41,467 nucleotides of DNA, taken from a virus. The translations under genes were made by a program, and so were the position numbers. Of this stretch, positions 4,548-36,600 are shown piece by piece (position 1 is the stretch's first letter; every line of letters begins with the position of its first letter). The notes under the pieces are model-generated. The model did not search any database, was not told where the DNA came from, and was given only the letters and a program-made list of their open reading frames with translations. Where the stretch lies: positions 1-41,467 of IMG/VR virus record IMGVR_UViG_3300042406_000242; one strand, 5' to 3'.

Positions 4548-4969
4548 GTTGGTTATACAAAGGTGAAGTATTTAATGACAGCAAAATTCCAGATGGTGCT
4601 GTAGGTTTCATTTATGAAATGGAAGCAATCATTAATGGTAAAGCAGTCCGTTATATTGGCAAAAAGAACTTTTATTCTACAGTTAAAAAGAAACTGGGAA
4701 AGAAAGCTATTGCTGCAATGACAGACAAAAGGGCATCAAAATACACTTTTGTTAGTAAAACTAACTATCAAAACTATTACAGTAGTAATCAAGTGCTACA
4801 GGATGCACATAAAGCAGGAGTACCTATAAAGAGATTTATGGTTAGAATATGTTTCTCAAAGACAGAGTTAACATATCATGAGACCAAATTTCAATTTGTA
4901 AGGGAAGTGCTTGAAAAAGAAGAATATCTAAATGCCAATATTCTTGGCAGGTTTTATAAAATCAAATAG
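4544..4969 (+). CDS. GIY-YIG-type putative endonuclease
   Basis: A 141-residue protein that resembles a phage family of small putative nucleases. It shows G-F-I-Y-E-M near residues 22-27 and V-R-Y-I-G-K-K near 37-43, corresponding to the GIY and YIG halves, then an N-Y-Y-S-S-N-Q segment, and later an E-L-T-Y-H-E-T-K-F-Q-F helix that supplies a Glu and Tyr. It ends in the family-like N-A-N-I-L-G-R-F. The role in phages is not settled: some relatives are homing endonucleases, others may act on host DNA. It overlaps the primase stop by four bases, suggesting an ordinary operon member rather than a recently inserted homing gene. Confidence 0.65.
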   Translation: MSWLYKGEVFNDSKIPDGAVGFIYEMEAIINGKAVRYIGKKNFYSTVKKKLGKKAIAAMTDKRASKYTFVSKTNYQNYYSSNQVLQDAHKAGVPIKRFMVRICFSKTELTYHETKFQFVREVLEKEEYLNANILGRFYKIK

Positions 4970-14937: not shown

Positions 14938-15324
14938 ATGAAAGAACAATTAAAAGCCGTAGAGCAATTCCATAATGCATTTGGACAAGAAAATGGTAAA
15001 TGGCCACAACCTTTATCAGAACATGAGTTTAATCTTAGACACTCATTAATGAAAGAAGAGAATGATGAATACTTAGAAGCTTGTTTTAAGAATTCACTAG
15101 TAGAAATTGCAGATGCATTGGGTGATCAATTATACATCCTCTGCGGGACTATTCTTAAGCATGGTATGCAACATATCATAGAAGATGTATTTAATGAAAT
15201 ACAAGCCAGCAATATGAGTAAATTAGGGGATGATGGCAAGCCTGTACTCCGTGAAGATGGTAAAATTCTAAAAGGACCTGGTTATTTTAGACCAGACCTA
15301 TCTAAATTCATTGAAGTAAAATGA
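14938..15324 (+). CDS. MazG-like nucleotide pyrophosphohydrolase
   Basis: A 128-residue all-alpha NTP pyrophosphohydrolase of the MazG/PRA-PH-like type. The metal-binding motif is visible as E-E-N-D-E-Y-L-E-A (about residues 39-47) followed by E-I-A-D-A-L-G-D-Q-L-Y (about 57-67), the E-x-x-E and E-x-x-D pair. The C-terminal part resembles the phosphoribosyl-ATP pyrophosphohydrolase-like phage proteins, with A-S-N-M-S-K and G-P-G-Y-F-R-P. Such enzymes clean or reshape nucleotide pools, or reduce host alarmone or non-canonical nucleotides during infection. It starts just after a terminator and shares ATGA with the thioesterase gene. Confidence 0.8.
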   Translation: MKEQLKAVEQFHNAFGQENGKWPQPLSEHEFNLRHSLMKEENDEYLEACFKNSLVEIADALGDQLYILCGTILKHGMQHIIEDVFNEIQASNMSKLGDDGKPVLREDGKILKGPGYFRPDLSKFIEVK

Positions 15325-15737
15325 CTTTCCTTAATTCTCATCCAATTAAAAAATCTGATCTTGGTTTTCACGGTAACTTGTTTGGAGGCAAACTTCTAGC
15401 ATGGATTGATGCAGCTGCTGCTGGTTATGCAATGCAGTTATGTGACACTCCAAGAATGGTTACTGTAAGTATAGACCAATGTAATTTTGAAAGAGCTGCA
15501 AAAGAAAGCCAACTTTTAAAAATTTATGGTTATCCAGTTAAAGTTGGTAACTCTTCAGTTACTCTCTATATGGAAGCAAGATCCCACAATGTATATACAG
15601 GAACACAAACTCTAGTTCTAAAGACTAACATAACTTTTGTACATATTGATGAAGGAGGAAGTCCTATTCCTATAGCAGGAAAAGGTAAGAAAAGAATTAA
15701 AACTTTAATAGATCAAAATGAGTCCACAACAGTTTAA
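15321..15737 (+). CDS. Hotdog-fold acyl-CoA thioesterase
   Basis: A 138-residue single-hotdog protein of the YciA/acyl-CoA hydrolase type, which cleaves acyl-CoA thioesters. The signature helix is D-L-G-F-H-G-N-L-F-G-G-K-L-L-A-W-I-D (about residues 13-30), with the conserved N-x-F-G-G and the catalytic-type Asp. It is followed by a V-T-V-S-I-D strand and the F-E-R-A-A-K segment, then R-S-H-N-V-Y-T-G, all in family order. Length is normal for one domain. The start lies in the MazG stop codon (ATGA), so it is co-expressed. A lipid or CoA metabolic enzyme is unusual in a phage; it could alter host membrane lipids or a metabolite signal, but the substrate is unknown. Confidence 0.82.
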   Translation: MTFLNSHPIKKSDLGFHGNLFGGKLLAWIDAAAAGYAMQLCDTPRMVTVSIDQCNFERAAKESQLLKIYGYPVKVGNSSVTLYMEARSHNVYTGTQTLVLKTNITFVHIDEGGSPIPIAGKGKKRIKTLIDQNESTTV

Positions 15738-19100: not shown

Positions 19101-19550
19101 TAACTCATCATTCTGGATTTTGTTAATCACAAAATTAAAGTGCTTATGAGCTTGCTTGGATTTATTAAATGCATCTTTGACAAACTCATTAATGCTGTTA
19201 ATACCATCCAGGTTCTCTAAGATATTAATCAAATCTTTAGTCTCTTTGATTTTCTCTTTCTGTTTAAAAACTTTACTTCTCTCAAGAACTTTAATTTTCT
19301 TTTCTAGATAGATGCGTATATTTTCAACAAGTCTTGTGACTTTGTCGTCTTCCATTTCAGCTCTGGTAGGCTCAGCTTTAGTTACCGCAGCACCAGACTC
19401 TTCAATTTCTTTATACTCATTTCTCTTGTCATCTTTATCAAATTCTTCAGCCTCCCATCTTTTGCGGGCTTCTACTCTGTCACCACCGGTTTCAGAGAGA
19501 ATTCTTTGCCATTCTGAATCTGTTTCTATAGGACATCTATCTATTCTCAT
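16134..19550 (-). CDS. Large crAss-like cargo/ejection protein with C-terminal membrane helix
   Basis: An 1,138-residue protein, the last gene of the late operon. It begins MRIDRCPIETDSEWQRIL and a Trp/Arg-rich helix, then has long charged helical stretches (about residues 60-330). A mixed middle region follows, and one clear membrane segment lies at about 1001-1019 (L-G-F-I-L-A-L-S-A-L-I-W-G-L-L-L-M-V) before a very acidic stretch. The C-terminal 110 residues are rich in aromatic residues. It has no catalytic motif I can see. It overlaps the giant polymerase gene by four bases (ATGA). In crAss-like phages, large proteins encoded beside the RNA polymerase travel in the virion; co-ejection or a membrane channel role is inferred from this context. 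Confidence 0.7.
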   Translation of the reverse strand: MRIDRCPIETDSEWQRILSETGGDRVEARKRWEAEEFDKDDKRNEYKEIEESGAAVTKAEPTRAEMEDDKVTRLVENIRIYLEKKIKVLERSKVFKQKEKIKETKDLINILENLDGINSINEFVKDAFNKSKQAHKHFNFVINKIQNDELTRKEAIQELIAMQDFANRYSIIDEIQKSDVLKFFSTPVNVDQMINQDENELTPQEMLSFTKTVRDNIKTKFVAEGIPLMADFLLDYKPMDVDEKIKKEVYQLQQKIETIKNNPKNSQEFIEKKTNELQERIDTILNFTLDKKSMIEVLEKANKDTGVFDYLTAPLISSPDSALGLFARAVKTEMETARLEDIDFRKRAAKAFNEYKASVGSMLRDNPAKFNEGLYEEISVPRTDPETGEYIRTKDGRIILDKRMAFVQKYDQSLFHKEKARFFESIGKRPTNPTDAREWYIKINQWFDANTVAKPQEQIDEVLKQKELERNRGLLTEDEYQQWRKENLKLDESDRIIGYRYGKSGELVQPSEKYINAKWSALYDKNGKPLNPKGKYHEFLVTEYLKSQENLPDIQKLGYILPSIEKTNGERLFAKGIVDLTKNTLSETFNVKAYDIEYGVDLGLGEEGNKFLPVYFVQPMNPDDVSLNLMRSVLMFGSMSNNYNALNNIYSEISLFKEIIGEREIAETNAKGIPIIDSIANRLGYDRYLKTHGTNYSAKRVNDFIDMVVFGESKARWEIAGIAIDKVIDKLMNFSSISTLSLDLLKGMNNNLQGNIQLLIEAASGEFFDIKDWGKGKKDYWANIPGMLSDFSKFTPESLFGQIVEQYDPMQGEYKDQFGKVVTASVANKLFSTDTIFFNLHFGEHEIQVSTLFAMLNSRMVTDNESGEEISLMDAYKKYGVDQIKSKTSFTEEMRLDVQNKIHALNKRLHGIYNNFDKSVAQKYTLGRLGFMYRKFLIPSYTRRFKKLGMDQELGSMTEGFYRTFWNAFAKDILTFKSGIMSQWSTLSDFEKAQVRRTLTELGFILALSALIWGLLLMVDEDDEEEIKKSYAYNFMFYQAIRLRSETQQYLPGFGFKDAYRIVKSPTAMTNTVDHFIKFIDQFLFTWDEEKLSYQRRAGVWEKGDNKSWAYFLKLIGYTGNNITPEQAVKNFQMVLNK

Positions 19551-22500
19551 GATTTACAAATCTTTTCATTTATTAATGCAGCAACTTCATCTACTTGATC
19601 TTGGGTCTCAGCATTTTGTACTTTCTCAATCAAGTCTTTGACATCATAACCATATTGGCCTAATATCTCTTCTAAGTTAAAATCTTTTATGTAGGTTTGA
19701 ATCTGTTTTAGTAACTCATTTTTGTAAGCATTAGTTGCTGGAACATTTACATTACTTGGAACACCCATCTCACCTGTAGTCAAATCAATGTTCTTCATTA
19801 ATGTAGTACCACTTAATGGGTCTACTAAGTTATATAATCCATCTGAGTTAAGGACATAAACTCTACCTGCAGCTGAAGTAAATTTAGCTGGGAAGATGTT
19901 ATTGTTTTTTGCAACAGCATCTCTGAAGTCTTGTAAGTCTGTACTTGTCTCAGGATTAATTCTACCCATTGCAGCCTCAGCATCTGCAGATACCGCAAAT
20001 ACTGGAGTTATTTGATAAAGATATCTACTCTGAGTACCGTTAAGATAATTAGTGCTAAACTTATTGTTAGCTTTAAAATCTGCAGCATCTTTGAAACCTT
20101 CAGCTTTTGCTAATTGATCTAGAGTTCTTGTAGATACCTTACCAGTTTTCTCATTAGTGATCGTAACTTGATTACCGTTGATTGTTGATTTACCTATATA
20201 TTTAATTTCTACAACATCAGTAGAACCTTTAATGGAATATTTACCATCATTAATCAAGCTAGTTCTGTTTGTAATAGTTTTATTACCACTAAATACTTTA
20301 TCTACATTATCAGATCTTAATTCAATCTCTCCCTTAGTTGGTACTGCAGGAGTAGGTTTCTCTTCTACCGTAGCAAATGAAAATGTTGCCACAGCTGCTG
20401 TGTCATAGTCTTCTTCAGTAATAGGCTGTGGTGTTTCACCTCTGAAATCATATCCCCCTACCGCAGTGTCTTTTGGATTGTACACATATGCATACTCACT
20501 AGCTCTTGAAATTGCGACATATTTCAATTGATCTTTGATTGATTTTTGACCGTCCATTCCAAGTTTTCTTTTGTCAGCTAGATTAGATGCAAGGCTTGAG
20601 ATGCTATCGTCAAATATGAGTACTTTGTTATACGTTCCTCCTTGAGATTTGTGAATGGTATGAGCATAACCGTAATCAAGTGCTTTCTTAGCAAGGAATC
20701 TTCCATTGTCTTTAATGTCTCTATTAAATACAATATCTTCACTTACTGCTGAAATAGCACCGAATAGTCTACCTCTTGCTCTTCCATTTACTCTTGAATA
20801 GAAACCTTTGAGTTCAAGTAATCTAGTAGCAATTTCAACAAGTTCTGCATCATTACCTTCTGATGGTACATTGATCGAGAATATATTATCCGGATTAAGA
20901 ATATCTTTAATAGTTACTCTATAACCTTTAACTATAACATCTTTTCCTGGATCAAGAACAAGATCACCGTATTGATTTAAACTAGCTTTTGGAACATTTA
21001 CTACAAGATCTTTTTCTTCAGATACATCTTCAACAACATAGTCACCTGAATTAATCAGCATGTCTTCTCCAATATTATCATATCCCATTAAGATGTCTCC
21101 TTTGATATATGGAGATTTATTAGCTTCCTCACCAAATAGAATTTGTCTAGCCTGTACATTAATTTTAGCTACATCTTTATTCAATGAAGAAAGGATTCTA
21201 AAGTAAAGCATGTTGCCAGACTCCATCATCTCTTTTAGATTTTGACCAATGATTTGGTTTAATCTATCAGGAGTATCAAAGAACTCTACACCATTACCAT
21301 CTATTTCATCAGTAATGTAAGTAAAGTCTTGTCCTTCTCTTGCTCTTGTAGAGTTTAATAGAATAGGATTGTCTCCGGTTCTTTCAACTTTAGTAAGCTG
21401 TGCTTGATTCTGTGGATTGTCAAATACTTTAGATTGTAGTTTAGTATCATTCTGCACTGGACCAAGTTGACCTCTGTCTCCTGCAAAAATGATTCTAAGA
21501 TTCATAGTATCTTTAAACTCTTGAATTAAATCATAGAGCTCATTAGTTACCATAGAAGATTCATCTACAATGATTGTATCTCCTCTTTTAATCTTAGGTT
21601 CTTTAACTGATTCAGTTTTAACATCTCTGATATCTAACTGATCACTTTCAAGATTAAGCATTGGGTTAAGACCAAATAACTTATGTAGAGTAAGTACATT
21701 AGCTTTTGGATTCTTCATCTTAGTCACAGCATTTGCACGGTGAGTAGGTGAAGTGTAAATAGGTTTTACATAAGTTTTATTCTTAAGGTACTTATCAAAT
21801 ACACCTAAGATAGTAGTCTTACCTGTACCAGCATAACCAGATAATGTAATCTCATTTTGATACTTAGCAGGGTTGTTATAAAAATCTTCCAGTTTGTACA
21901 ATGCGGCTTGTTGTTCTGCATTAAGTGTAAATGGAACATCAATTGCTATACCATCTGCAAATACAAATTTATTTCCTGAGTTTTGAGCTTGTACTTCTAA
22001 CTGAGTAGGAGTTTCTCTAAATGGTCTACCATTCTGAGGGTCCACATTTGGATTAGTATTATAAGCATCAAGAAGTTTTTGTTTAGCAGCAGCTTTACCT
22101 TTGTAACCTTCAACATCTACACCAACACCATCCTGTAACTTAATGGTATACATGCTACCAAAGTATCTGTAATCATCAGTTGTTTTAGCTTGTGTAGATT
22201 GATTAACTACAGGAAGATTTTTTACAAAGTTTCTAAACCCTTCTATATCTTGTATAGAGCCTAGGAATAGAACATTTTTAGGATTAAAAACACCATAGAA
22301 ATCTTCTGGATCACCATCAGCTCTAGTTATAAAAGAATCAATAGGTCTTCCAGCTTCTATCTCACTAATTCTATTTTCTAAAAATTTAATAAATTTAGTT
22401 AAGTCTTCCCCAGTAAGTGCTTCAAATCTTTGATTGTTTCTATTAGAATAAGCATCTTTAGTTAAATAATATTCAATATCTTGTTCCCCAAGTACAATAT

Positions 22501-25500
22501 CATCCACTCTAAACATACCTCTATTAACAGCAAAAACTCCCTTATTTTGTTCTGCAAGTTTTGCATTTTTTAATTGTTCTTTTCTTAAAGTAAGGGTTTC
22601 TGGTAATTCTCCAATAAGCTCTGGAGAATTTATTAAAACTTGAGAGTTTATTATTACCGGTAATAATACACCTGTCTTTCCAGCATAATCTTTGGCCATA
22701 CTTTTATTAGCCAGATATAAGGCACGATTTTGAAAATCAGATATAGTATCTCCTAATTTATAAGCTGAAGTACCATGATAAAGTATATCTTTTATTTGGC
22801 TATTAGGGAATCTATTATTTAAATATTGAGAGTATTGTTCTTGAGACCCTATAGCAGATAGCTCAGGATTAGATTCAAATATTTCTTGTACACCACTTTT
22901 AACTTCAGCGGGTTTAGTAGTAGGTTTCTGTTGCTCAAGTGTTTTAGCATAGACATCTCTGATAGCTTTTTTACCTGCTTCATTAATTTCTCTTGTACCT
23001 ATACCTGCAAAGTTTTGTGTAAGTGTTGGAACTTCAGACTCTGACCATTTACCATCAATATTTTTAAACCATGCGTTACGTACTTGATCAAAAACATAAA
23101 CTGGTTTACCAGCTTGTATAGCCATTTCAATAGCATAACCTGTACCACCTTTACCTTGTCTAATCTTAGCCTTCTTACCGTAGTTCATTTCAGCACCAAC
23201 ATTTAACATTGTTGTTACTGCAAATACAGCATCAGAATATTTAACTTGTGACCAGTTTCTGATAAGTCTTTCGTCTCTTACTTGATGAGTAGGTTCAATT
23301 CTACCCATTGCTCTAGCGGCTTGGGTTACTTTTTCTTGACCTTCAATTGCATCATCGGCAGTAATTTCTGTATTTCCATTTGGTGTTTTGTTATTCATCC
23401 AATAATGCTTATTGTCTGTCATACCAAATTTTTTACCAATTACATCCCACTCAGTATCTGCACCAAGTGCACCACCAGAATGATTTGTATAATTAGTTAA
23501 AGTTATTTTTACTGGTTGAGGAGCAACTGGTGCATTCTCAATAGCCTCAAATGGATCTTCTTCAGCTGCTACTGCACGGATCTCAGGCATTGCATTGAAT
23601 TGATCTTCTGTTACTACAAAGTTTTTAAACTGTCTTTGTTCACTACTTACTGTACCATAAAATACATGTATTAATCCTAAGAAATTCCAATAGTTTAACT
23701 TAAATAAGTTAGATGCATTTTGCATTGCAGACTGCACCATGTCCTGTGGAAGTACTTGATCAAATCCATATAGAGTAGAACCTACACCATGTTGATAAAT
23801 TGCAACCAATGGAAGCATGTGGAATAATCTACTGATTCTTAAGTTTTCTTTAGTGTCTTCAACTTTTTGTACACTTTCATTGCCTAGAGCTCTAATGTTT
23901 CTAGCATAAGTATCTTTAGTAGCTGCATCAATTACATCTCTGTCAGTAAGAGTAAGTACATTAAACTCTGTAGACTTAGAAGTAGAGTGAATACTGATTT
24001 GCTCTAAGATAGGATAATCAATTGCAAGATTAGGATACTTCTGGATTACATCCATTACCTCATTAGTATAGGAGTAATCATTGTTTCTCATAAGTGCATT
24101 GTAATTAAATGAGTTTAACAATGCAATCTTATTTAATTCAAGTCCTGTATATCCTTTAGTTTGCATGTAACTTCTAAATATAGCATACTTGATATATGCC
24201 TCTTCAGATGCAAATGGATCTTGCTCTGTTTTAAATGGTTCAAGTCCTGGTCTTTGTGCATAGCTTCTTGGACCTTCTGCTATATCTAAATAGGATTTAT
24301 TTGCAAAGTCTTCTCTTAAGTTTTGAGAGTTCACATATACTACACCATCTTTAATTTCAACATCAGTTGAAAGATTCTTAGATAGCTTAACAGGCATCTC
24401 CTTAAACTCAGTAGGTATTTTTACAATACTACCATTAGCATCTATAAAGTTAGACAAGTAGTTTTGTAAAATAAAGTTAGTAATGTCATTCTTAAATGCA
24501 TTAACAAAGTTTACTAATCCGTCATTACTAGCACCAAATTTATTTATGATAGCAGTTTTATACTGTTCATCTGATAAAGCCGTTTTTATAAACTTATCTG
24601 TTGGTTCACCATTTCTAAGTGGAAGCATCTGTGAAACAACATCAACTATAAGTTTTTTATCTCCTAATGAACTTGTAATACTTTCATATAAGATTCTATC
24701 TTTTGATGCTTTATCAACTTTACTAAGCGTGTCTAATGAGTCAATGTCTAAGTCTCTTAGAGCAATCTCTTGAATATTTCTAAATAATGTAGTATCTGGT
24801 TTTGACCTTCTTTTCATTCTTCCAATACCCTGGATTTGCTTTTGAATTTCACTAAAGTGTAAAAGCATACCCATTGCAGGAATAATTTGATTTTGATCAA
24901 TAGTGCCTGTTTTAGCATATGAATCAATAAGATTATTCATTAACTCTAATGGGTAACCAGATGTTTCATATCTTTCATTAGCTTTAGATGATGCGTTGTA
25001 GAATAGTTTATTGTCAACAGAAGGTTTTACATAAACTTCTCTCTCTTTACCATCAAAATTAATTGTTACAGATGAGACATTATTTAGATCATAAATCAAA
25101 CCATTAATATTATCTCTAAGTTCTGAATACTTCATCTTTGTAGGAATGTCAATCCATCCTTGATTTGGAACAAATGTTTTATAGTATACAGTTACGTCAT
25201 CATTAGGCTGAAGTACAGAAATACTGGCATTATAATACTCCCGCATGTGTCTGTCAATAACTCTTTTTGTAGCTTCATATCTTTCAAATGCTTTTTCCTT
25301 AGCAGCAATACCCATAGCACCTGCAAATGGACCACTAATTTTTCTTAGTTCCTCTGCAAATTCTCTAATTAAAGGAGATGATACAAACTTAACTGCATAC
25401 TCTCTAGGTACACCAGATCTAATTAAATAGAGCATGGTCGGTGCAAGTTCATAGTTACCCTGAATATAAAATATCCATTCATTTGCTTCTACATCTACCC

Positions 25501-28500
25501 AACCATTCATACCTTGTGAAACTACATCAGCAATTCTATCTATTCCAGCTTCATCATATATTTTTGAAAGTGAGATGTTTCCTGATTTTGTTTTATTATG
25601 AGGTAAGAATAATCTCATATCATAAATAGGTTCACCAAACTCTACATACTTACTTAATGACCTATTAAATTCTGATGCTTTATATTTTTTAGGTAAAATA
25701 ACACCAGCTTGATTAAAGACAGGGTTCATAGCATTTTCACTAGCAGCAATACCAAGTACTGCTTTACCGACAATATTATGTCCATGTTTAGCCACATTGT
25801 ATCTTTGTTCAAGTACAGTAGTTGGGCTAATCATCTTTGTACCTTTACCACTTATATTTACCTCTTCACCATTTACTTTTTCATATTTATCAAAGTCACT
25901 TACTTTATCTTCAAGTTCTTCTGAAAGTCCTTGTAATAAAGCAGTATCATTTGGTTTAACTAGAGTTGCGTAATTCTCAGGAATCTCAAGAATAGATCTT
26001 ATGTTCTCAATAAAACTATTCTCTACAACTTTCTTTTGTTGCTTAAGCATCTGTTTCTTTTCAGCATCAGTTGCTTTATTGTATGCAGCAAAGAATTCTT
26101 CTCTACTTAAGTTAGATGTAATTAATTCACCCGTTTCAGAATTGATGTTAGGCATGAATGTAGTTAACTTATCTACGTCAAAGTCACCACCTGATTTTGC
26201 AACAAGTTCTGTTGGTACAATAATAATAGAACTTGCTGATGGATCTAAAAATTCATAGACCTCCATGAACTCCATAGAGTTAAGACCTTGTACTGGGATA
26301 CGTACAGCAGTCATTGTAATTGACTTTCTATTATTATCTGTATCTAACCACTTATCATCCTTAATCATTTCGTTAAGTCTCTGGATTGTACCAATAACTT
26401 CACCATCTAGATGCTTAAGTTTAAGTAAGTGATAGAAGTCTCCTTGTAAAGCAATAGCAACTTTCATTGCATTTGTTTTACCGTCTTTACCTGGATGATA
26501 GAATGGAAGTGTATTACTACCCATATGCTTTTTGATATCAGCATCAGTAGGAGCAGTCCACATGTTATTTGTAAATGAGCTTGCAACTTGTACAAGTGCT
26601 TCACCTTTTACTTTTTGACGGACAAACTTCTTCTCTACAATTGACATTATAGTATCTTCAATTGCTTGAGCATCTAAGAAATATGATAAGTCATATTTTA
26701 ATGATCCATCACTGTTTGTTTTAAGAGCTCTAAGTAAATGCTCTGGATAATCTTTTCTTTGTAGATTATCCTTAATTACTTTTAAAAACTTCTCAGGATT
26801 AGTTATACCCTTAGTTTCATCATAACCAATCTCTTGTTTAAGTTCTTCTTTAAGTAACTCAGTATTGAATTTTACACTTTCCTCATAAGCTTTAACTAGT
26901 CCAGAATATTTAGGAAGCGTTAAAGCACCTTCTTCATATAAACCATCAAGAATTAACTTTCTTAACTGTGTAGAGAAAACTACTTTACCCTTATACTTAT
27001 TAGGTACATTGGTAACTTCTTTTAAGAAACCTGCATTAAATGTATTTTTAGTAAATACAACAGAGTCATTAAATCTACCATCTTCAGTAATAGCTTTATC
27101 TGGTTTACCATTTGAAGTAACTGCACCAACTTTAGAGCCTGACTCAAATGTAACATACTGAATGTTTTGCTCTAACATTTTTTTATGCAACTTATCAAAG
27201 TCACTTCCTTCTTTAATTACACTTGGAATTAATGGGAATAGTGCAAACTTATGAAATGCTGTTACAGGTAATACAGTATCTTCTAAGAATCCAAAGTTTT
27301 GTAATTTATATACTGGGAAGAATTCATCAAGTGGTCCTTCAATAGGTTCACCTTTTATAATTTTTTGAAATAAATCTTCTTGTTTAATGCTCCATTTATT
27401 CTGAAGTCGCTTTAAAGTTCTATATGCATCAAATGTAATATAACCTTGACCATCACCTTCTTTAATTTCTTCTTTGGTATATTTTTTTACCTCACGATCT
27501 ACTGTCTTCTTGATTTCATCAGCAGACATTTTAGTATTTTCTGTATAGAATTTTGTAAGACCATCTCTGATGTCAGGGATATAAACACTATCTCTTTTAA
27601 TTTCCTCAATTACAGCAGTGTTTAATGAGCCATCATAAATAAAATTATTATACTTTGGAGGAAGTGTTGAGGCATAGGTTTTACCTAAGTTGAATTGTTC
27701 ATTGATATATCTAATAGCAGCAACATCTGTTCTAACTCTACGACCATTAGAAATTAAACCAGAAGTTCTTTTATGGAAGCCTTGTTTAGGATGATCATAC
27801 TGTGCAATGTCACCATAGAATATAACTGATGTTTCAAGATTATGAATCCATGAGTTATACATATAGGTTTTTGTCAATAGCCTTTCTTTCTGTGAACCTG
27901 TAAATCCAGGAATATTATATTTATTTAATAACTTAGGATCTATGTACTTAGCTTCATTTAAATAATCATAAAGTTTATTACTTTTTTTCTCAAAATAACT
28001 TTGTATTTCTTTAATGATTGTTTCTTTAAGTTTAGGATCTGAAGAAAGATAGTTTAATAAAGTTACCTCAGTGGTATTTACTTTAGATAGAATCTCCTGT
28101 TTAGTTTCTTTTGATAATACACCATCAAAATAATTAAACTGTTCTCCTGAAGGTTTACCATCTTTACCTGGTTTATTATAGCCAATATAGTTTTTAGCTT
28201 CAGGATTAGTTTTGAAAATATTAATCCTAGCTGTTTCAGAAGATACATATGGTAAGATAATCTTTTCAATAGCATCCAATTCATTATTCATTGAAAGGAA
28301 GGTATCAAAGTCTATGTAAAGATGTTTATCTTCTTTAGTACCAATACCTGGAAATTCAATACCACCATCTATTCTCCAAGCAAATGAAGATGACTTAGAT
28401 CCCGGTCTAAGAACTTCTTGCATACCTGCTTTTAACATAGTATGGAACTCTTGAATAAATTTACTTCTAGGATCTAAATCTGTAGTAGTAGAACCATCTT

Positions 28501-31500
28501 TACCAAGAATCTGAGTACCTGATGCCATTTCAATTACAATGGATCTACCAACTCTCTTTTTATTACTTGCATCAAACAAGCTATTAAAAGTCTGAAGGTT
28601 ATTAGTCCAAGGATTTCTTGAAGGATCAAGGTAGCTTGTAATACTTCCTTTTCTAAATAGATCTGTTTTTTCTTCAGCTGTATTTAATGCGTCAGCAATT
28701 ACAGTTAAAGTATTATCTGTAGTGTGCTCATTAACTCTTTTCTTAGCTGCATTAAGTACACTAAAGTTAGAACTTGTAGCTCCGTATTTATTCTGCAGTT
28801 CAATAAGTTTGTTTACAGCAGTGGATAATTTTAAACCATTAAGATAAATTGCACTACCTGGTGCACCAATAATACCTTTATTAAAACCTTTAGATAAAGC
28901 ATCAATAGGATTAGATCTAAATCTGTTGATGATTTCCCATCCTTCATCACTTAGATTTCCTGCAACCTGTGCATCTCTAAGTTCTTTAAAAGCAGTAAAG
29001 ATATAACCAAGAGCATAATCTTTACGAATAATCTTATTACTTAGGGTTTGTTTAATTTTACCTAAGTCATCATAATTAAAACCAATTGCTTTTAAGAATC
29101 TATATTCTGCATTATCCCCAGTTTTTAATTGACCATCTGTACCGATAAATTCTTGAACAATAGCATTAAGATTTAAAATGTTATTGTTGAACTTATCTTT
29201 GCTGATAAACTTGTTAGGCTTCTGAGCTTTAAACTGACTTGTAAACTTTCTTTTAGTACTACCAATGTCCATTGACGTACCAACTACTTCAGTTGTTGTC
29301 CCATCTTTTTCAGGAACTACTAATAACTGGATATACTTGATTCTTGGAAGACTGAATGCATTCCAGAAAGAAGTTGTAATACTAAAGCTTGTACCATTAA
29401 TTGGATCTTCAACTGATGGGTTAGGTAACTTATATTCTACAAGTTGTTTTAATTCAGGATATATTGCAGAAGCTGCTACAATCTTATCATATATTTCTTG
29501 AGGATCTTTAGTGCTACCTGTAGATCTTACAAGCGCATTCCAAACTTTCTTAAAGCTTGCTCTCTTTTTAAATCCAAGTCTATCATACTGATGATTACCA
29601 TCTTTATCAAGAGCAAATAAACTCTTAAGCATGTAGATAACTTCATTATCAGCTAACTGTTGCAATGTAACATCACCTACAGAGTCTTTTAACTTTTCTC
29701 CTCCTGCAGCATCTTCAATATCATTTGTAGCTTCTTCAGGATCCAATGCTGGATCTGATTCTTGAAGTCTTACTTTTTTATTAATGATATTAAAATCTGA
29801 ATGTTCTTTGTGGAACTTAATTGTTTTATTCCAGTTTTTAAGAGCTGTTTGGAAGATTCTTAATCTTTCAAGATCAAGTTTCTGATCAAAGTCAAGTACT
29901 GCTTGAGTAGCAGAAGCATTTGGATTTTCTACAATCTCAGTATAATCTGTTTCTTTAGCTTTTACATAAGCTTCAAATTGAGCTTTTGCTTCTTCTAAAC
30001 TGTTTACAATTACTATGTTAGCAGGAGTCTTGTCGGTTCCTTTGATTTTATTGTGAGTATAAAAGTCTCCGATTACATCAATTGTACCTTTATATAATTC
30101 TCCTTTAATTCTTTCACCTTCTTTATTATCTAATGTAAGATTATCAAAGTCTTCAATTTGATCTCTAAGGAAGAAGTATTCATTATCCCCTTTAGAATTC
30201 TTAATTACTGCTACAGCATTTGTAGAAAGATCTACAAGAGTATTGATGTCATTAAATGGTTTAACTGGGGCTACAGTAAGTCTGTCTTTAATTTCAGCTA
30301 CTCTATCTTGTAAGTTTTCTTTTAAGAATTCATAAAGCTGAGCCTCATTTTCTTTTCTAAGAATGATGTTTACAGTACCACTCTTATTAGCTGTTGCTCC
30401 ATTACTTTCTTTTTGATATGCATAGGCATTATCAATCTCTTCAGAGATCATTGAGTCCATTGCATTTACAAGATCTAATGAATCTCTTTCATTAAGTGCA
30501 TCTTCTCTATAAGCTCTTTGTTGTCTTACACCACGATTAAGCATGTCCCATTGAACATTATCAATTAGTGGCACATAGTCATTTAATAGTTCAGGTTTGT
30601 TAGAAGCAAAATATAGTTTATTAAATAACTCTCCTGCTACACCATATGTAGAGATTTCTTCTGGTTGAATTTGATCAGCCAAAGATTGTTTACGGCTAAA
30701 TAATTTCTTTAAGAAGTTTAAGATTCTTCTAAATAAAGTATTTCTAACAGGTGCTCCTTTTTTAGTTTTTGGAGAAAGAGCATAAGTTCTAAAGTCTTCA
30801 GCTAAAACTTCTTCAATTGCACGAGCAGAAAGATTCTTAAACTTAGGGTCAGAGTTTCTTACCTCATTATATAATTTTAATTTTTCTTCTCTGGTCAAGA
30901 ATAATTGTGAGAATACGTGCCAAGCTTCATGGTATGTATCTACCATTGAACCTTTAGTAGCTTGATTAATTAAAATCTTACCAAGTTTACCATCTAGATT
31001 TTGCTCAGCAAGAAGTGAAGAACCTGCAGCAATAAATCTTGCATATACATTAGAGTTAACAATGTTTGCTACTTGCTCTAATGATATAAATTTAGAAAGT
31101 GGGGAGTTATTCCACCAAATAGTAGCAGCATCAATTTGCTCTTGAGTAACATCATTAGAAAGATCTGCACTTCTATCTAACTTAAACTTACCGTAATTTC
31201 TTTTCAATCTTCTAGAGATAGGTGTACTATCTGAAGGTTGGATTGTATTATCTGGATTAAGTAATTCTTTTTGGTCTCCTTCTATATCTTCATCAGGAAC
31301 AGTATTAGGTTCTGGCTTAAGTTCATCTAAAGCTTCAGCCTCTTCTGTTTCTGCAGCAGTAATAGTTTCAATTGGAATACCTCTTGAATCCTCATTTTTA
31401 AAGTCTCTTTCTCCAAGAGATCCCATATTAAGGGTGCCACTTTTTTGTGTATCAGCTTTAGCTTTAACAGCATCTTTAAAAAGAAAACCACCATCTATAA

Positions 31501-33649
31501 TATCTTCTACAACTAAATAAAAAGTATCACCTACATGTACTACTGATTGTGCATTATAAAATCTATGGGTTCCTTCTTGACCCTCTATAGTAGCATCATA
31601 GTTATATGTGCTAGGTCTTTTATCAGGGTATTGTTTTTCAGTTACGTTAGTTACTTTTATTTTAATTGATTTAGCTGGGGTATTGTTAACAACCTCAACC
31701 ATATTATCTTTAAACTTACGTATTTCAGATCTTGAATCTTCAGTCACTCTTTGTTGTGCTTTAGCTGCTTTATTAGAGTAAGCATCTGGAATAGCAAACT
31801 TAAGATAAGAGTTGTATAATGGAAGACCTTGAGATTTTGAAAGAAGAATCTTTGGATTTAAACCAACAATAAATTCTTTGTAAGTACCTGACTTAACTAG
31901 TTTATCAGTAGTCTCATCATAAGTAAAAAAGTCACTATTTAAAATGCCATTCATGTAATTCATCTTGGCACCATACTTAGTTACTTTACCTTCTTTTACA
32001 GAAGCTTTACCACCATTTAAAACTTCTTGAATCTTATCAGTACTTTGTTTACTACCATCAAGCGGCACATATCTTAAAGTATTAACAAGACTTGGATTAG
32101 CTTTAAGTTCTGCTGCAGTATAATCTGCATAAATAAAATAAAGCTTGTTATTTTTCTGGATTAATTTATGTCTTCTTGTATCAGTAACAAATGAAAAGTC
32201 CTTATTATTTATTTTGCTTTGTAAGTTAACTATCTTATCATTAAAGAATTGATTGTAAAATGCAACTTTTTCTTTTGTCTTTAATGTTTTTGATTGTAAT
32301 GCTTGAGCAATTTGTTTAGAAATATCTTTAGGGATATCTGTTCTATCTACTTGGAAACTTTGATCATCTACTGTAATAATAGAAGCTCCAGATCTAAAAC
32401 CATACTCATCTTTATTTAAGACTAAGAATGTATCAATTGTATTAGGAGCTAATCCTTCAAGATCAGATAGTTTTACATCTTGCTTAATTACATCATTTAA
32501 TATACCTGTACTAGCTCCTGTTACAAACAATAAAGGTGCTTTACCTTTTAGTGCTTGTTGCTTGAGGTCATATAGTTTTTTAAATTCCTCTTGTTGCTGT
32601 TTACCTAAATCTTTAACAAGATCAGCAAAAGATGCATTTTCATTTTTCTCATATGCAGATACAGAACCATAACCCATAAATCTTAGCATTTCATATGCTA
32701 GATCAATAGGTTTCATAATTTGATCCTCTTTATTGTAGATATCTCTTACAGTATATTTACCATTTTGGAGACGTACATCTCTCATCATTTGGTAAACAGG
32801 TTTGCCTCCTTTTTCTTTAGTAGTTACATCACCCTGCTGATTAAAGTAAATAGTGTTACCACTCTCATCAGTAAGCATTAAAGCAAATAACTGGCTAATT
32901 GGAGTAACATCATTTTTGATACTTTCTTCTTCTCCAATACCAATCATTTTTCCAATTAAATCATCAGTCTGTTTAGTTCTTTCGTCTCTTGGAAAATCTT
33001 TTAGATTGACAACCTTTAGTCTTAAGAATTTACCCTGGTAATTAATTGTAGCATTAATATCAAGATTTCTAGCTAAGTTTCTAATTTTTGCTAAAGCTAA
33101 TCTGATATATGTTTTACTTGGGTCTGTAGTTTCTACAACACCTTCAAACTTATCATTAGGATTCATTGTGATGAACTGTTCTAATGTACCTGATAAAGCT
33201 GTACTAGCTTTCAGTCTATCATCAGAAACTTTTGCAATAGGAGTTGGTACTTCATCCTCATAGTCTTCTTGAGTTGGAGTATTAGCTTCATAGTCTGATA
33301 CTGCATCAAGTACTTCTGGAGTAAGCTCTCTATTAAATCTAGCATTTACTTCTTGCCATCCAGTATCCGGATTTCTAAAAGCTTTAGCCATAGCAGCTAA
33401 ATTCACACTTGGGTCAATGTCAACAACATCAATAAGCTTAGCTGCAATAATATTAGCTAAGTATGGAAACTGTTGCATATATTGTAATGCACTATCTACG
33501 CCTTGCTTCTCAGCAAGTTTAGTATAGAGGTAATCCATATACCCATTAATGTCAAAAACTTCCCCTTGAGGAAGCGTTGACATTTTTTTATAAATTACTT
33601 TAGCTAGTGCTTCAATATGTTTAGTTCCAAGTGCGCAAGTAATTGCCAT
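19547..33649 (-). CDS. Giant polyvalent virion RNA polymerase with protease, SLOG, ART, SF1 helicase and ASCH-like domains
   Basis: A 4,700-residue uninterrupted frame. Visible modules in order: helical N-terminus; HEAWH (907-911), a zincin-type zinc motif; RNA polymerase core with M-K-V-A-I-A-L-Q-G (about 2395), R-I-P-V-Q-G-L-N-S and the catalytic D-F-D-V-D-K (2489-2494), equivalent to the DFDGD loop of cellular beta-prime and to crAss-like phage RNA polymerases; SLOG-type domain with S-G-G-A-L-G-A-D (3391-3398) and later F-A-G-I-G-T-R-E; ADP-ribosyltransferase-like Y-H-G-T (3624-3627) with A-L-Y-L-A; SF1B helicase with GYAGTGKT (3938-3945), D-E-S-S (4029), G-D-R-G-Q-L-G-P (4056), H-K-S-Q-G-G (4333) and an arginine motif at 4382; probable ASCH domain (about 4438-4546). 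It is coupled to its neighbours by TAATG and ATGA overlaps. Virion packaging and early transcription are inferred from relatives. Confidence 0.88.
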   Translation of the reverse strand: MAITCALGTKHIEALAKVIYKKMSTLPQGEVFDINGYMDYLYTKLAEKQGVDSALQYMQQFPYLANIIAAKLIDVVDIDPSVNLAAMAKAFRNPDTGWQEVNARFNRELTPEVLDAVSDYEANTPTQEDYEDEVPTPIAKVSDDRLKASTALSGTLEQFITMNPNDKFEGVVETTDPSKTYIRLALAKIRNLARNLDINATINYQGKFLRLKVVNLKDFPRDERTKQTDDLIGKMIGIGEEESIKNDVTPISQLFALMLTDESGNTIYFNQQGDVTTKEKGGKPVYQMMRDVRLQNGKYTVRDIYNKEDQIMKPIDLAYEMLRFMGYGSVSAYEKNENASFADLVKDLGKQQQEEFKKLYDLKQQALKGKAPLLFVTGASTGILNDVIKQDVKLSDLEGLAPNTIDTFLVLNKDEYGFRSGASIITVDDQSFQVDRTDIPKDISKQIAQALQSKTLKTKEKVAFYNQFFNDKIVNLQSKINNKDFSFVTDTRRHKLIQKNNKLYFIYADYTAAELKANPSLVNTLRYVPLDGSKQSTDKIQEVLNGGKASVKEGKVTKYGAKMNYMNGILNSDFFTYDETTDKLVKSGTYKEFIVGLNPKILLSKSQGLPLYNSYLKFAIPDAYSNKAAKAQQRVTEDSRSEIRKFKDNMVEVVNNTPAKSIKIKVTNVTEKQYPDKRPSTYNYDATIEGQEGTHRFYNAQSVVHVGDTFYLVVEDIIDGGFLFKDAVKAKADTQKSGTLNMGSLGERDFKNEDSRGIPIETITAAETEEAEALDELKPEPNTVPDEDIEGDQKELLNPDNTIQPSDSTPISRRLKRNYGKFKLDRSADLSNDVTQEQIDAATIWWNNSPLSKFISLEQVANIVNSNVYARFIAAGSSLLAEQNLDGKLGKILINQATKGSMVDTYHEAWHVFSQLFLTREEKLKLYNEVRNSDPKFKNLSARAIEEVLAEDFRTYALSPKTKKGAPVRNTLFRRILNFLKKLFSRKQSLADQIQPEEISTYGVAGELFNKLYFASNKPELLNDYVPLIDNVQWDMLNRGVRQQRAYREDALNERDSLDLVNAMDSMISEEIDNAYAYQKESNGATANKSGTVNIILRKENEAQLYEFLKENLQDRVAEIKDRLTVAPVKPFNDINTLVDLSTNAVAVIKNSKGDNEYFFLRDQIEDFDNLTLDNKEGERIKGELYKGTIDVIGDFYTHNKIKGTDKTPANIVIVNSLEEAKAQFEAYVKAKETDYTEIVENPNASATQAVLDFDQKLDLERLRIFQTALKNWNKTIKFHKEHSDFNIINKKVRLQESDPALDPEEATNDIEDAAGGEKLKDSVGDVTLQQLADNEVIYMLKSLFALDKDGNHQYDRLGFKKRASFKKVWNALVRSTGSTKDPQEIYDKIVAASAIYPELKQLVEYKLPNPSVEDPINGTSFSITTSFWNAFSLPRIKYIQLLVVPEKDGTTTEVVGTSMDIGSTKRKFTSQFKAQKPNKFISKDKFNNNILNLNAIVQEFIGTDGQLKTGDNAEYRFLKAIGFNYDDLGKIKQTLSNKIIRKDYALGYIFTAFKELRDAQVAGNLSDEGWEIINRFRSNPIDALSKGFNKGIIGAPGSAIYLNGLKLSTAVNKLIELQNKYGATSSNFSVLNAAKKRVNEHTTDNTLTVIADALNTAEEKTDLFRKGSITSYLDPSRNPWTNNLQTFNSLFDASNKKRVGRSIVIEMASGTQILGKDGSTTTDLDPRSKFIQEFHTMLKAGMQEVLRPGSKSSSFAWRIDGGIEFPGIGTKEDKHLYIDFDTFLSMNNELDAIEKIILPYVSSETARINIFKTNPEAKNYIGYNKPGKDGKPSGEQFNYFDGVLSKETKQEILSKVNTTEVTLLNYLSSDPKLKETIIKEIQSYFEKKSNKLYDYLNEAKYIDPKLLNKYNIPGFTGSQKERLLTKTYMYNSWIHNLETSVIFYGDIAQYDHPKQGFHKRTSGLISNGRRVRTDVAAIRYINEQFNLGKTYASTLPPKYNNFIYDGSLNTAVIEEIKRDSVYIPDIRDGLTKFYTENTKMSADEIKKTVDREVKKYTKEEIKEGDGQGYITFDAYRTLKRLQNKWSIKQEDLFQKIIKGEPIEGPLDEFFPVYKLQNFGFLEDTVLPVTAFHKFALFPLIPSVIKEGSDFDKLHKKMLEQNIQYVTFESGSKVGAVTSNGKPDKAITEDGRFNDSVVFTKNTFNAGFLKEVTNVPNKYKGKVVFSTQLRKLILDGLYEEGALTLPKYSGLVKAYEESVKFNTELLKEELKQEIGYDETKGITNPEKFLKVIKDNLQRKDYPEHLLRALKTNSDGSLKYDLSYFLDAQAIEDTIMSIVEKKFVRQKVKGEALVQVASSFTNNMWTAPTDADIKKHMGSNTLPFYHPGKDGKTNAMKVAIALQGDFYHLLKLKHLDGEVIGTIQRLNEMIKDDKWLDTDNNRKSITMTAVRIPVQGLNSMEFMEVYEFLDPSASSIIIVPTELVAKSGGDFDVDKLTTFMPNINSETGELITSNLSREEFFAAYNKATDAEKKQMLKQQKKVVENSFIENIRSILEIPENYATLVKPNDTALLQGLSEELEDKVSDFDKYEKVNGEEVNISGKGTKMISPTTVLEQRYNVAKHGHNIVGKAVLGIAASENAMNPVFNQAGVILPKKYKASEFNRSLSKYVEFGEPIYDMRLFLPHNKTKSGNISLSKIYDEAGIDRIADVVSQGMNGWVDVEANEWIFYIQGNYELAPTMLYLIRSGVPREYAVKFVSSPLIREFAEELRKISGPFAGAMGIAAKEKAFERYEATKRVIDRHMREYYNASISVLQPNDDVTVYYKTFVPNQGWIDIPTKMKYSELRDNINGLIYDLNNVSSVTINFDGKEREVYVKPSVDNKLFYNASSKANERYETSGYPLELMNNLIDSYAKTGTIDQNQIIPAMGMLLHFSEIQKQIQGIGRMKRRSKPDTTLFRNIQEIALRDLDIDSLDTLSKVDKASKDRILYESITSSLGDKKLIVDVVSQMLPLRNGEPTDKFIKTALSDEQYKTAIINKFGASNDGLVNFVNAFKNDITNFILQNYLSNFIDANGSIVKIPTEFKEMPVKLSKNLSTDVEIKDGVVYVNSQNLREDFANKSYLDIAEGPRSYAQRPGLEPFKTEQDPFASEEAYIKYAIFRSYMQTKGYTGLELNKIALLNSFNYNALMRNNDYSYTNEVMDVIQKYPNLAIDYPILEQISIHSTSKSTEFNVLTLTDRDVIDAATKDTYARNIRALGNESVQKVEDTKENLRISRLFHMLPLVAIYQHGVGSTLYGFDQVLPQDMVQSAMQNASNLFKLNYWNFLGLIHVFYGTVSSEQRQFKNFVVTEDQFNAMPEIRAVAAEEDPFEAIENAPVAPQPVKITLTNYTNHSGGALGADTEWDVIGKKFGMTDNKHYWMNNKTPNGNTEITADDAIEGQEKVTQAARAMGRIEPTHQVRDERLIRNWSQVKYSDAVFAVTTMLNVGAEMNYGKKAKIRQGKGGTGYAIEMAIQAGKPVYVFDQVRNAWFKNIDGKWSESEVPTLTQNFAGIGTREINEAGKKAIRDVYAKTLEQQKPTTKPAEVKSGVQEIFESNPELSAIGSQEQYSQYLNNRFPNSQIKDILYHGTSAYKLGDTISDFQNRALYLANKSMAKDYAGKTGVLLPVIINSQVLINSPELIGELPETLTLRKEQLKNAKLAEQNKGVFAVNRGMFRVDDIVLGEQDIEYYLTKDAYSNRNNQRFEALTGEDLTKFIKFLENRISEIEAGRPIDSFITRADGDPEDFYGVFNPKNVLFLGSIQDIEGFRNFVKNLPVVNQSTQAKTTDDYRYFGSMYTIKLQDGVGVDVEGYKGKAAAKQKLLDAYNTNPNVDPQNGRPFRETPTQLEVQAQNSGNKFVFADGIAIDVPFTLNAEQQAALYKLEDFYNNPAKYQNEITLSGYAGTGKTTILGVFDKYLKNKTYVKPIYTSPTHRANAVTKMKNPKANVLTLHKLFGLNPMLNLESDQLDIRDVKTESVKEPKIKRGDTIIVDESSMVTNELYDLIQEFKDTMNLRIIFAGDRGQLGPVQNDTKLQSKVFDNPQNQAQLTKVERTGDNPILLNSTRAREGQDFTYITDEIDGNGVEFFDTPDRLNQIIGQNLKEMMESGNMLYFRILSSLNKDVAKINVQARQILFGEEANKSPYIKGDILMGYDNIGEDMLINSGDYVVEDVSEEKDLVVNVPKASLNQYGDLVLDPGKDVIVKGYRVTIKDILNPDNIFSINVPSEGNDAELVEIATRLLELKGFYSRVNGRARGRLFGAISAVSEDIVFNRDIKDNGRFLAKKALDYGYAHTIHKSQGGTYNKVLIFDDSISSLASNLADKRKLGMDGQKSIKDQLKYVAISRASEYAYVYNPKDTAVGGYDFRGETPQPITEEDYDTAAVATFSFATVEEKPTPAVPTKGEIELRSDNVDKVFSGNKTITNRTSLINDGKYSIKGSTDVVEIKYIGKSTINGNQVTITNEKTGKVSTRTLDQLAKAEGFKDAADFKANNKFSTNYLNGTQSRYLYQITPVFAVSADAEAAMGRINPETSTDLQDFRDAVAKNNNIFPAKFTSAAGRVYVLNSDGLYNLVDPLSGTTLMKNIDLTTGEMGVPSNVNVPATNAYKNELLKQIQTYIKDFNLEEILGQYGYDVKDLIEKVQNAETQDQVDEVAALINEKICKS

Positions 33650-36600
33650 TATTCACAAATTTCTAGGTTAAATAATTCATCTTCTAAACCATCAAGTTTA
33701 GAATCTTTGACTGTGTCTGCTATGTTGTCAATGTCTTTGGCACCATATTGAGATGCAACATCTGTTCCTTTAGATAAAACTGTTTTAATTTCTGGAGTAA
33801 CTTCGGCAACTTCTTGTGTTGGTTTCATAGTAGGTAGTTTTTGTTTTTCTACAGTGCTAGTTTCTAGCTTATCAAAGGTAACGAAAATAGTATCATTTCC
33901 ATTAACTTTTTGTAGCGTAACTCCATCTTTTTCAATTGATTTTACTGTAACTGGAGTACCTTCAGTTGCCCATGCAGACTCAGCTGCAAGAGACTTAGTT
34001 ATAACTCTTGAACCATATTCTTCAGATGGAATTCCTTCTTTAACAATGCGTTCAAGAATTGACTTAGGAAGGGCATCAATAGTCTTATTTTTATAACCCA
34101 TTTGGTTAAGCATTTGTCTTAACTCAGGATTAATTTCAGTTACTACTTGGATACCTTCTTGTGTTGGTTCTTCAGTTACTGGAGGACCTACAATATCTTC
34201 TAAGTCTGCAACTTCAGCGTCTACAAAACTATATGTAGCTACTGGAGGAGTTTTATCTGTTTCATTAGTTATGTCAGCAAACTCTTCTGCAGTTTCAGCT
34301 GTAGCCTCTGCTTTAGGGGAAGCTGGTGTAGCACCCTCAAGTTTATTCTTTACTGTAATATCTTCAGCTACATCATCCAATAGATCATATAGATATCTAA
34401 TTTGATCATAGTATCTGTCAGCGGCAGCTTCAAGCTGGCTTAATCTAGTACGTTCCTCATCTTGTACTTGTTCTAGGAATTCTACATCATCCATAGTATC
34501 AAGTACTAATTTCTCAAGTTGATCAAACTGATTTTTTAATCCAGCATATCCATTAGCTTTTGCTATAGAAGCAGCATTAGTAGACTTAATTAATTTACCA
34601 AGTTCGTCTTTAGATAAAACTTTAAAGCCAGTTTTCTTTTGGAAATCTGTCATTGTCTTATATCTTGAGTTCCAAACATTTAGATACTCTTTTAAATAAG
34701 CAACAGATTTAGCAATTGCATTCTTAAGAATAGAAATTAATTTCTCTACTGTAGTAAGTTTCTTTTCAAGCTTAGTAATCTTTTCACGGATATCAGCTCT
34801 TGATAAAATATTAAGATTAGGATCAGCTATCATATTTTTATAATAGTTGATCTGATTAGTAATATCTTTTTTATTTGCTTCTACAGTTTTTAAATCTGCT
34901 TTAAGTTCAGCAATTTTTGCCAATGTAGTTTTTGCAACTTCAAATTCTCTTTCTACTTGAGCTTTAATATCTCTTTTTCTAATTTTAGTCTTAGGTCTAT
35001 TCTTATACTTAAAGTCTACAATAGCTTTAATCATTTCACTAATCTGATTTGCATCAGCCATTGCAGTTTCTAATTGTACACCAGTAAGCTCTAAACTAGT
35101 ATCAAGTAACTCTTGCAAATGCTTGAGAGTATCCTTAATGTTAGCAGCATCAGTAGCTAGTTTATTTCTTTTTTGCTCTAATAAAGCAACTCTTTTAGCA
35201 AGTGCTTTCTTAGCTTGTTCTCTTTTCTTTTTAATATCTCTATTGATATCATTCACATTCTTGGCAGGTTCTGCTTCTTTAGGTTCTTCCTCTGGAGTTT
35301 CCTCTGAAGAAGTGTCTTCCTTAGATAATGCTTCAGCATTTTCTGTTTTAATAAGATATCTATTTACAAGATCAAAATCAAACTTAGCCATTAATGCAGC
35401 TTCCTTCTCTTCATTTGTTTTTTCAGAGTCAGGTTTTTTATTTAATCTATTATATTGACTTTCTAATTTTTTAGCCAAAGCTTTAATTTCAGAAAGATCC
35501 ATTGCTGAAAGATCATACACTTCTCCCTCAAATGTTACTTCAGGAGCATCATTAGCTTCAATTGCTTTTTGTGTAGCTTCATCAAGTTTTTCTTTATTGT
35601 AGTCTTCAATAATCTTTGCAGCAGTTGGGTTATCCTTTATAAACTCATCCAACATATTTAATATCTCTATCTCTTCCATCTCAGAAACTTCATCAATAAG
35701 TTTCTCATCTGTTTCAATATAGTCATTAAATGCATTATTTAATCTTTGTTGTAGTTCAGCATCCATGGATTCCCATGAACTATTAACTGTAAACTGTACA
35801 TAATCAGCTTGTTGAATTTGTACATCATCCTCAAGTTTCTGAATATTGAGTCTAATTACATCTTGCTTTCTTTCTGAGTATTGATTCTCTAGTTTTCTTA
35901 CTTCAATTGGATCAGGTTTAAGTTCTACTCTATAGATATCTCCAGAGGTAAAGCCTCCATCAAATTCATCTATAGTAATTTCTTCACCATTTTTATCTCC
36001 AAGTTTAAGCACATTACCGTCTTTATAGATAGTAATTTCAGATACATCTTTACCCTGTACAAGTTTTGCATCAATGTAATCACCATCAGCAAGTTGCTCA
36101 GATAGTTCTTCTAGAGTAGCCAGGTTATTCTTTAATTGAAGTTTACCTTTCTTTGTAACTCTTTCAGTTTTTGGCAATGCATTAATCTCTCTTTGCAATT
36201 CAACATCAAGATTAGCTAACTCAGCATTAAGCATCTGATCTAATGTCTTAGCATAACTAGTACGGTCCATCATTTTGAGTCTAAGAGCTCTTTCAAATAA
36301 CTCTACATACTCATCATAATCTGGATGACCTTCTTTAATTACTGCTTTTCTAGTTGCATCAAAGAATTCATTTGGAAGTTTATTATTTCTTTGAAATTCA
36401 TATGCATCATCTGCACTGATAAATACATTTTTGTCAGCTAGTTTATTTAGTAAAGTATTTAGTTCAAGATTTGTAATCTCTTGATTTACTAATCCTTCAT
36501 AGTATTCTTTTCTATTATCATAAAGTCTTTGCATCCATGTGTAGTTTCTCTCCACATGTTCTGTAAAACTTTTTGGATTATGAAGCATATTCACATAAGA

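Follow-up and report, generated by a model that had tools for sequence, protein, structure and literature searches.

The window analysed here has a length of 41,467 nucleotides and comprises the whole of its virus record, which is probably a fragment of a virus genome. On its left side the genes are located on the plus strand, where a DnaB-like helicase, a Sak4-like annealing protein, a DNA primase, a DNA polymerase and a PD-(D/E)XK nuclease are encoded, and they run towards a block of four large genes that lies on the minus strand. A GIY-YIG homing-type endonuclease (SegE, Pfam E 3e-18; positions 4544-4969) adjoins the primase gene, and within the replication block of the phage a thioesterase-superfamily (4HBT) protein (15321-15737) adjoins a PRA-PH-like pyrophosphohydrolase. 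Within the minus-strand block, one frame runs from an ATG at 33649 to 19547 over 4,700 codons and contains no internal stop, while the plus strand has many stops across the same interval; the uninterrupted chain of 4,700 residues claimed for this interval in the preliminary description therefore exists, and its strand is the minus strand. The modules of this giant chain and its neighbours are given in Table 1. The downstream neighbour P0002 is a homologue of gp49 of crAss001 and gp65 of phi14:2 (hhalign E 2e-51 and 4e-20, respectively). The homology of the upstream neighbour P0003 to crAss001 gp47 is weak (hhalign E 6e-17 over about 150 columns, possibly coiled-coil), so that the chain order at this side rests on synteny and on the cysteine rule described below.

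Table 1. Position of the giant chain, its modules, the neighbouring chains and the terminal cysteine codons in the window.
Feature	Position	Strand	Remarks
Giant virion RNA polymerase chain (assigned by homology)	19547..33649	-	4,700 aa, 529.7 kDa; two cysteines only (C5, C4698)
Conserved N-terminal region, residues 1-673	31631..33649	-	module HMM matches 77 proteins
Zincin-like metallopeptidase segment, residues 824-1107	30329..31180	-	HEAWH at 907-911; HEXXH + EExxAE invariant
Conserved middle region, residues 1263-1900	27950..29863	-	module survey of relatives
RNA polymerase catalytic core, residues 1900-2800	25250..27952	-	DFDVDK at 2489-2494; 6vr4 matches
Post-core conserved region, residues 2888-3346	23612..24988	-	module survey of relatives
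SLOG / DprA-like module, residues 3385-3571	22937..23497	-	PHROG 768; insertion boundary vs L015
ART-PolyVal type ADP-ribosyltransferase-like module, residues 3582-3809	22223..22906	-	PF18760 in 5/9 members
SF1 Dda/RecD-like helicase, residues 3895-4393	20471..21967	-	PHROG 325, Pfam AAA_30
ASCH module (by predicted fold), residues 4430-4575	19925..20362	-	Foldseek 2z0t, 5guq first; Pfam ASCH below cut-off
Conserved C-terminal domain, residues 4579-4698	19556..19915	-	keeps last place behind accessory modules
Upstream cargo chain P0003, 1,966 aa	33649..39549	-	1 nt overlap with giant; one cysteine (C1965)
Downstream cargo chain P0002, 1,138 aa	16134..19550	-	4 nt overlap with giant; one cysteine (C6)
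P0004, next gene upstream, 633 aa	39539..41440	-	no cysteine; outside the coupled series
Junction 1, C-terminal half: P0003 C1965, codon TGT	33655..33657	-	
Junction 1, N-terminal half: giant C5, codon TGC	33635..33637	-	
Junction 2, C-terminal half: giant C4698, codon TGT	19556..19558	-	
Junction 2, N-terminal half: P0002 C6, codon TGT	19533..19535	-	

A profile of ten relatives covering residues 1900-2860 gave a single match in the PDB, namely 6vr4, the structure of phi14:2 gp66 (E 1.2e-35), and the SGGDFDVDKL of the giant chain was aligned with the gp66 motif at D1361. An AlphaFold2 model of the same residues, based on 38 aligned sequences and with a pLDDT of 80, was used for a Foldseek search, in which 6vr4 again ranked first (E 4e-26, prob 1.0, TMq 0.59) and ranks 2 to 10 were multisubunit or phage RNA polymerases, or complexes that include such an enzyme, at low probability. 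From this profile match and the predicted fold, the giant is identified as a crAss-type virion RNA polymerase, of which it forms the catalytic chain, as the preliminary description had proposed. That proposal had been made dependent on two double-psi beta-barrels in the core and withstands this by comparison of sequence and overall fold, because the core is homologous to the solved two-barrel enzyme 6vr4. No cellular RNA polymerase family of Pfam matched in the window, as is expected for so divergent a group. By analogy with its homologues in phi14:2 and crAss001, the giant would be packaged in the virion; the homologue in the relative L022 is annotated as a virion protein. The window yielded no recognisable capsid gene, and a phi14:2-like MCP was found in the contigs of 8 of 10 relatives (E about 1e-9).

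Unusual forms of the polymerase chain were also encountered elsewhere. In L066 (4796-22748) together with L107 (IMGVR_UViG_3300027983_000017), an apparent open chain of 6,381 residues carries two polymerase cores with DFDGDK at 2334 and DFDIDK at 5680, which are about 25% identical, and HEXXH at 842 and 3727; its cysteines are present only at both ends, and the GC content changes along it, from about 0.27 to 0.32, so that the chain is to be regarded as provisional. The giants of several gut crAss phages (L002, L003, L004, L005, L006, L109) contain 38-78 in-frame stops per chain when translated with table 11, in line with the stop-codon reassignment that has been reported in these phages.

The zincin motif noted in the preliminary description is present, and the HEXXH together with the downstream EExxAE is invariant in all 19 aligned relatives of the segment, which was found in 87 proteins and has a homologous segment in the gut crAss giants and in crAss001 gp47. 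A family assignment could not be added to the motif, as no convincing match was obtained among the library profiles or the solved structures; the MPTase-PolyVal profile gave no match and was dropped as the candidate family. The remaining modules named there hold up, on evidence of different kinds. The helicase, with GYAGTGKT at residues 3938-3945 and Walker A and B motifs, is matched by the Dda-like PHROG profile (E 1.5e-67) and by Pfam AAA_30 (E 1.8e-18), followed by a C-terminal UvrD_C_2 match, in agreement with the SF1B claim. The SLOG module is recognised by the DprA-like profile PHROG 768 (E 5.4e-6), with Pfam cpYpsA at just 0.04. The ADP-ribosyltransferase-like assignment is made through relatives, since PF18760 (ART-PolyVal) matches five of the nine members of the module (best E 1.4e-9) and the window copy alone gives no match. 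For the probable ASCH domain, the sequence comparison was weak (ASCH 0.008 at best, DUF669 1.4e-4), and it is the predicted fold that speaks for it, with 2z0t (library name hypothetical protein PH0355) and the Zymomonas ASCH protein 5guq as first Foldseek matches (prob 0.96-1.0, E 5.6e-3 at best). DUF669 was rejected, because it outscores ASCH but stays below its own cut-off and the fold favours ASCH. In sequence searches against solved structures, the ART, SLOG, ASCH and zincin segments gave no meaningful match.

Across some 80 relatives taken from viral contigs, the N-terminal region, the zincin segment, the middle region, the polymerase core and the post-core region occur in constant order in one chain, and the C-terminal domain, with about 120 residues, occupies the final position wherever it is present. 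The accessory modules are absent from most of these relatives, and all four occur together only in the window. L015, at 95% identity, differs by the absence of precisely the 601-nt SLOG segment; L012 contains SLOG, helicase and ASCH without ART, L010 and L011 helicase and ASCH, L023 SLOG and helicase, and L024 ART and ASCH. The C-terminal modules are thus mixed and matched, SLOG, ART, helicase and ASCH being gained and lost independently between close relatives. A complete take-over package, as the set had been called in the preliminary description, is not supported as a fixed unit, since only the N-terminal region, the zincin and the polymerase core are constant; nor is a single giant chain exceptional, given that Suoliviridae and Fpv1 have one chain of 4,300-5,800 residues in the same place. 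Giant multidomain RNA polymerases are a hallmark of crAss-like phages (PMC7886860, PMC10136315), and what is new here is the exchangeability of the modules. According to the module survey, the tail of the polymerase chain can be regarded as a docking site for exchangeable effector domains. In L062, L070 and L078 the ART module belongs to the downstream partner and not to the giant itself, and modules therefore move between chains as well.

The three consecutive chains of the window contain very few cysteines, namely one in the 1,966 residues of P0003, where it is the second last residue, two in the 4,700 of the giant and one in the 1,138 of P0002, with a total of 7,804 residues, and all four are located at chain ends that face a gene break. 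This pattern was followed in 43 environmental relatives dereplicated at 70% identity, in which a cysteine was scored when it was within 10 residues of an end. A cysteine was present at 78 of 78 junction C-termini and 78 of 78 junction N-termini, at none of the 31 outer C-termini, and 157 of the 165 cysteines in 285,990 residues fall within the terminal tens. The sole apparent outer N-terminus with a cysteine belongs to L058, a giant whose upstream gene is cut by the end of the locus. The rule was stated before the annotated genomes were gathered for its confirmation; these comprise 17 + 5 genomes from three Crassvirales families, a relative from lemur faeces and Flavobacterium phage Fpv1, and show a cysteine at 27/27 and 29/29 junction ends as opposed to 0/20 and 0/22 outer ends. 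Two further cases, cr116 and cr108, which are split by introns, were inspected and excluded from the counts. Among control ORFs from these genomes, a terminal cysteine occurs in 8/219 (N-terminus) and 23/219 (C-terminus) cases. At these control rates, six independent breaks correspond to a chance probability of about 3e-15; the value for the full count is far smaller but overstates independence, as the genomes are related, and the fairer number is about five types of break, including the fission in L033/L040 described below. The terminal-cysteine rule is near-exceptionless. The cysteine is mostly found at residues 3 to 6 of the N-terminal end and 0 to 8 residues from the C-terminal end, with no shared context. 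The rule also aids annotation and suggested a corrected start codon: the annotated start of crAss002 gp33 (L100:16088) is probably 32 codons early, as an internal MSC matches the relatives, and for the counts the start was moved 32 codons downstream to fit the rule. No earlier report of terminal cysteines in crAss cargo was found in the literature searched, although a prior mention may exist.

The position of the break differs between clades. It is located before the zincin in the clade of the window and after it in Steigviridae and Intestiviridae, whereas in Suoliviridae the sole break lies before the gp49-like part, and each of these breaks has its cysteine pair. The rule holds for the three chains of Steigviridae, for the two chains of Intestiviridae, including p-crAssphage, in which the RNA polymerase is fused to the gp49-like part, and for the two chains of Suoliviridae, in which the upstream part, the zincin and the RNA polymerase are fused. 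In Fpv1, where the upstream part is fused to the RNA polymerase, a single cysteine is present in 4,401 residues, and it is at the break end. In L033 (14493-15221) and L040 (16788-18755) a separate gene, with 242 or 655 residues, encodes the giant's C-terminal domain; this gene has cysteines at its own N- and C-terminal ends, so that the fission carries an extra pair, whereas the unsplit relatives L038, L039, L041 and L021 (57% identity to the split L033/L040) have the two outer cysteines only. We infer that the split is the derived state. No conserved internal cysteine is present at the fused RNAP-gp49 boundary of Intestiviridae, the sole cysteine column shared by all six being N-terminal. Since the pair moves with the break and an extra fission has an extra pair, the pattern is not mere inheritance, and a single ancestral residue was rejected as its origin.

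In the simplest interpretation, selection acts on the covalent continuity of the cargo, which either a peptide bond or a bond between two cysteines could supply. The giant would be packaged in the capsid together with its partners P0003 and P0002 and ejected into the host for early-gene transcription, with the variable effector modules (SLOG, ART, helicase, ASCH) riding between the polymerase and the fixed C-terminal domain. The cysteine near the end of each chain would form a disulfide with the cysteine near the start of the next, making the cargo one covalent thread of about 7,800 residues in which each join is either a peptide bond, where the parts are fused, or a disulfide, where they are split. 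This thread would pass the portal and tail in order and partly unfolded, and the reducing cytosol would open the disulfides and release the chains. The domain identities, the gain and loss of modules and the terminal-cysteine rule are observed, whereas packaging of the giant in the virion, disulfide bonding, ejection as a train and reductive release are the conjectural steps of this scheme. On balance, we consider it likely that the giant is a packaged, module-bearing polymerase chain that is disulfide-coupled to P0003 and P0002 and ejected with them as a train. The general form, according to which all crAss-like cargo is a covalent thread with interchangeable peptide and disulfide joins, new breaks gain pairs and the cytosol unhooks the chains, appears to us more plausible than otherwise. 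In the crAss001 virion, gp47, gp49 and gp50 are all present, inter-subunit disulfides occur in portal-vertex and tail proteins, and the constrictions of the tail are under 50 Å, for which partial unfolding on exit was proposed (PMC10172136). Thioredoxin-like genes are annotated near the cargo block in several crAss-like genomes; a relation is possible but not certain.

Both the cells that gut phages come from and those they infect are anaerobic, and oxidation there may proceed slowly; this speaks against disulfides. The terminal cysteines could instead clamp a folded polymerase complex, by a disulfide or a shared metal site, in the virion or in the cell and with no role in threading. Such a clamp fits the placement of the pairs exactly at junctions, the fused forms demonstrate that the ends in question can lie side by side, and crAss001 virions are described as stabilising assemblies by disulfides (PMC10172136). 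However, there are two cysteines per junction with no obvious conserved histidine or acidic neighbour, so that a four-ligand zinc site is not evident, and the variable positions without shared context suit a flexible tether better than a metal site; we regard the clamp as unlikely. It could also be argued that the zincin cuts the chains apart instead of their being coupled, although processing and coupling may be compatible and not mutually exclusive. In its full form, this explanation treats the giant as an ordinary polyvalent cargo polyprotein that is cut by the zincin at maturation or after entry, with the cysteines of minor importance. The invariance of HEXXH and EExxAE in the core and the proposal that zincin-like peptidases process polyvalent phage proteins (PMC5512222) are in its favour. 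It is nevertheless quite improbable, as it gives no reason for a cysteine at every break and almost nowhere else, nor for the extra pair at the fission, and free cleavage would render covalent continuity pointless.

Finally, a translational coupling motif (TGY) at the adjacent stop and start could produce the cysteine codons by accident, as junction genes are mostly adjacent (-7 to +36 nt) and 139 of the 157 codons are TGT. However, in crAss001, DAC15 and cr128 the gp47-like partner gene is non-adjacent and on the opposite strand, where a local nucleotide signal cannot link both ends; moreover, the spacing varies, TGC is used as well, and other ORFs of these genomes do not have the pattern. 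A nucleotide-level origin was rejected on these grounds, and we give it hardly any credence.

If the coupled train is real, it would be a previously undescribed principle of "train coupling" for the delivery of giant proteins through a phage tail, and it would preserve both the order and the stoichiometry of the cargo. How proteins of 150-530 kDa exit through constrictions of <50 Å in an ordered manner and in matching numbers is posed as an open question in connection with the crAss001 study (PMC10172136). The preliminary description had likewise asked how the giant passes the portal and tail; it was missed there that the giant is one of three chains related by the cysteine rule, which bears directly on this question. 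The cysteine rule makes protein exit directly testable, and reduced and non-reduced LC-MS/MS data of crAss001 virions exist (PMC10172136). The computed disulfide-linked tryptic peptides of crAss001 are CNS from the C-terminal end of gp47 with CITTNSTIEELAAK of gp50 (M 1812.8234) and ICGANTLYEL from the C-terminal end of gp50 with CAIIPQVR of gp49 (M 1992.0172).

Among the known systems, phi14:2 gp66 (6vr4) is similar to the giant in the sequence and fold of the catalytic core, and its partner gp65 corresponds to P0002. The terminal cysteines are also found there, at the C-terminal end of gp67, at C3 and C2179 of gp66 and at C3 of gp65, as noticed here. However, gp66 has only 2,180 residues and matches neither the zincin nor the SLOG, ART, helicase or ASCH modules. 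In crAss001, gp47, gp50 and gp49 are three virion RNAP-associated chains that keep the cysteine rule, with the zincin in gp47, the RNA polymerase in gp50 and gp49 as the homologue of P0002; in contrast to the window, the break is after the zincin, gp47 is on the opposite strand and the accessory modules are absent. Tail disulfides are reported by Bayfield et al., in the available part of which terminal cargo cysteines are unmentioned (PMC10172136). The Suoliviridae (cr118_1 gp14, cr50_1, cr113_1, cr130_1) have the RNA polymerase in one chain of 4,300-5,800 residues, usually with the zincin. Of the accessory modules, the helicase occurs in cr118 and cr50 and SLOG in cr113, cr109 and cr130, but none of these giants has all four, and with the upstream part fused there is only one break. 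The polyvalent proteins of phages and conjugative elements (PMC5512222) resemble the giant in being long chains of many domains, zincin and ART among them, that are injected; the giant differs by its crAss-type polymerase core, and no cysteine coupling rule was found for them in the available part of this source. The N4 vRNAP and the P23-45 RNAP (PMC10770324) resemble the giant as very large virion polymerases in one chain that enter together with the genome; of these, the N4 enzyme is unsplit and contains no cysteine in its 3,500 residues, and the P23-45 enzyme is fused to a tape measure.
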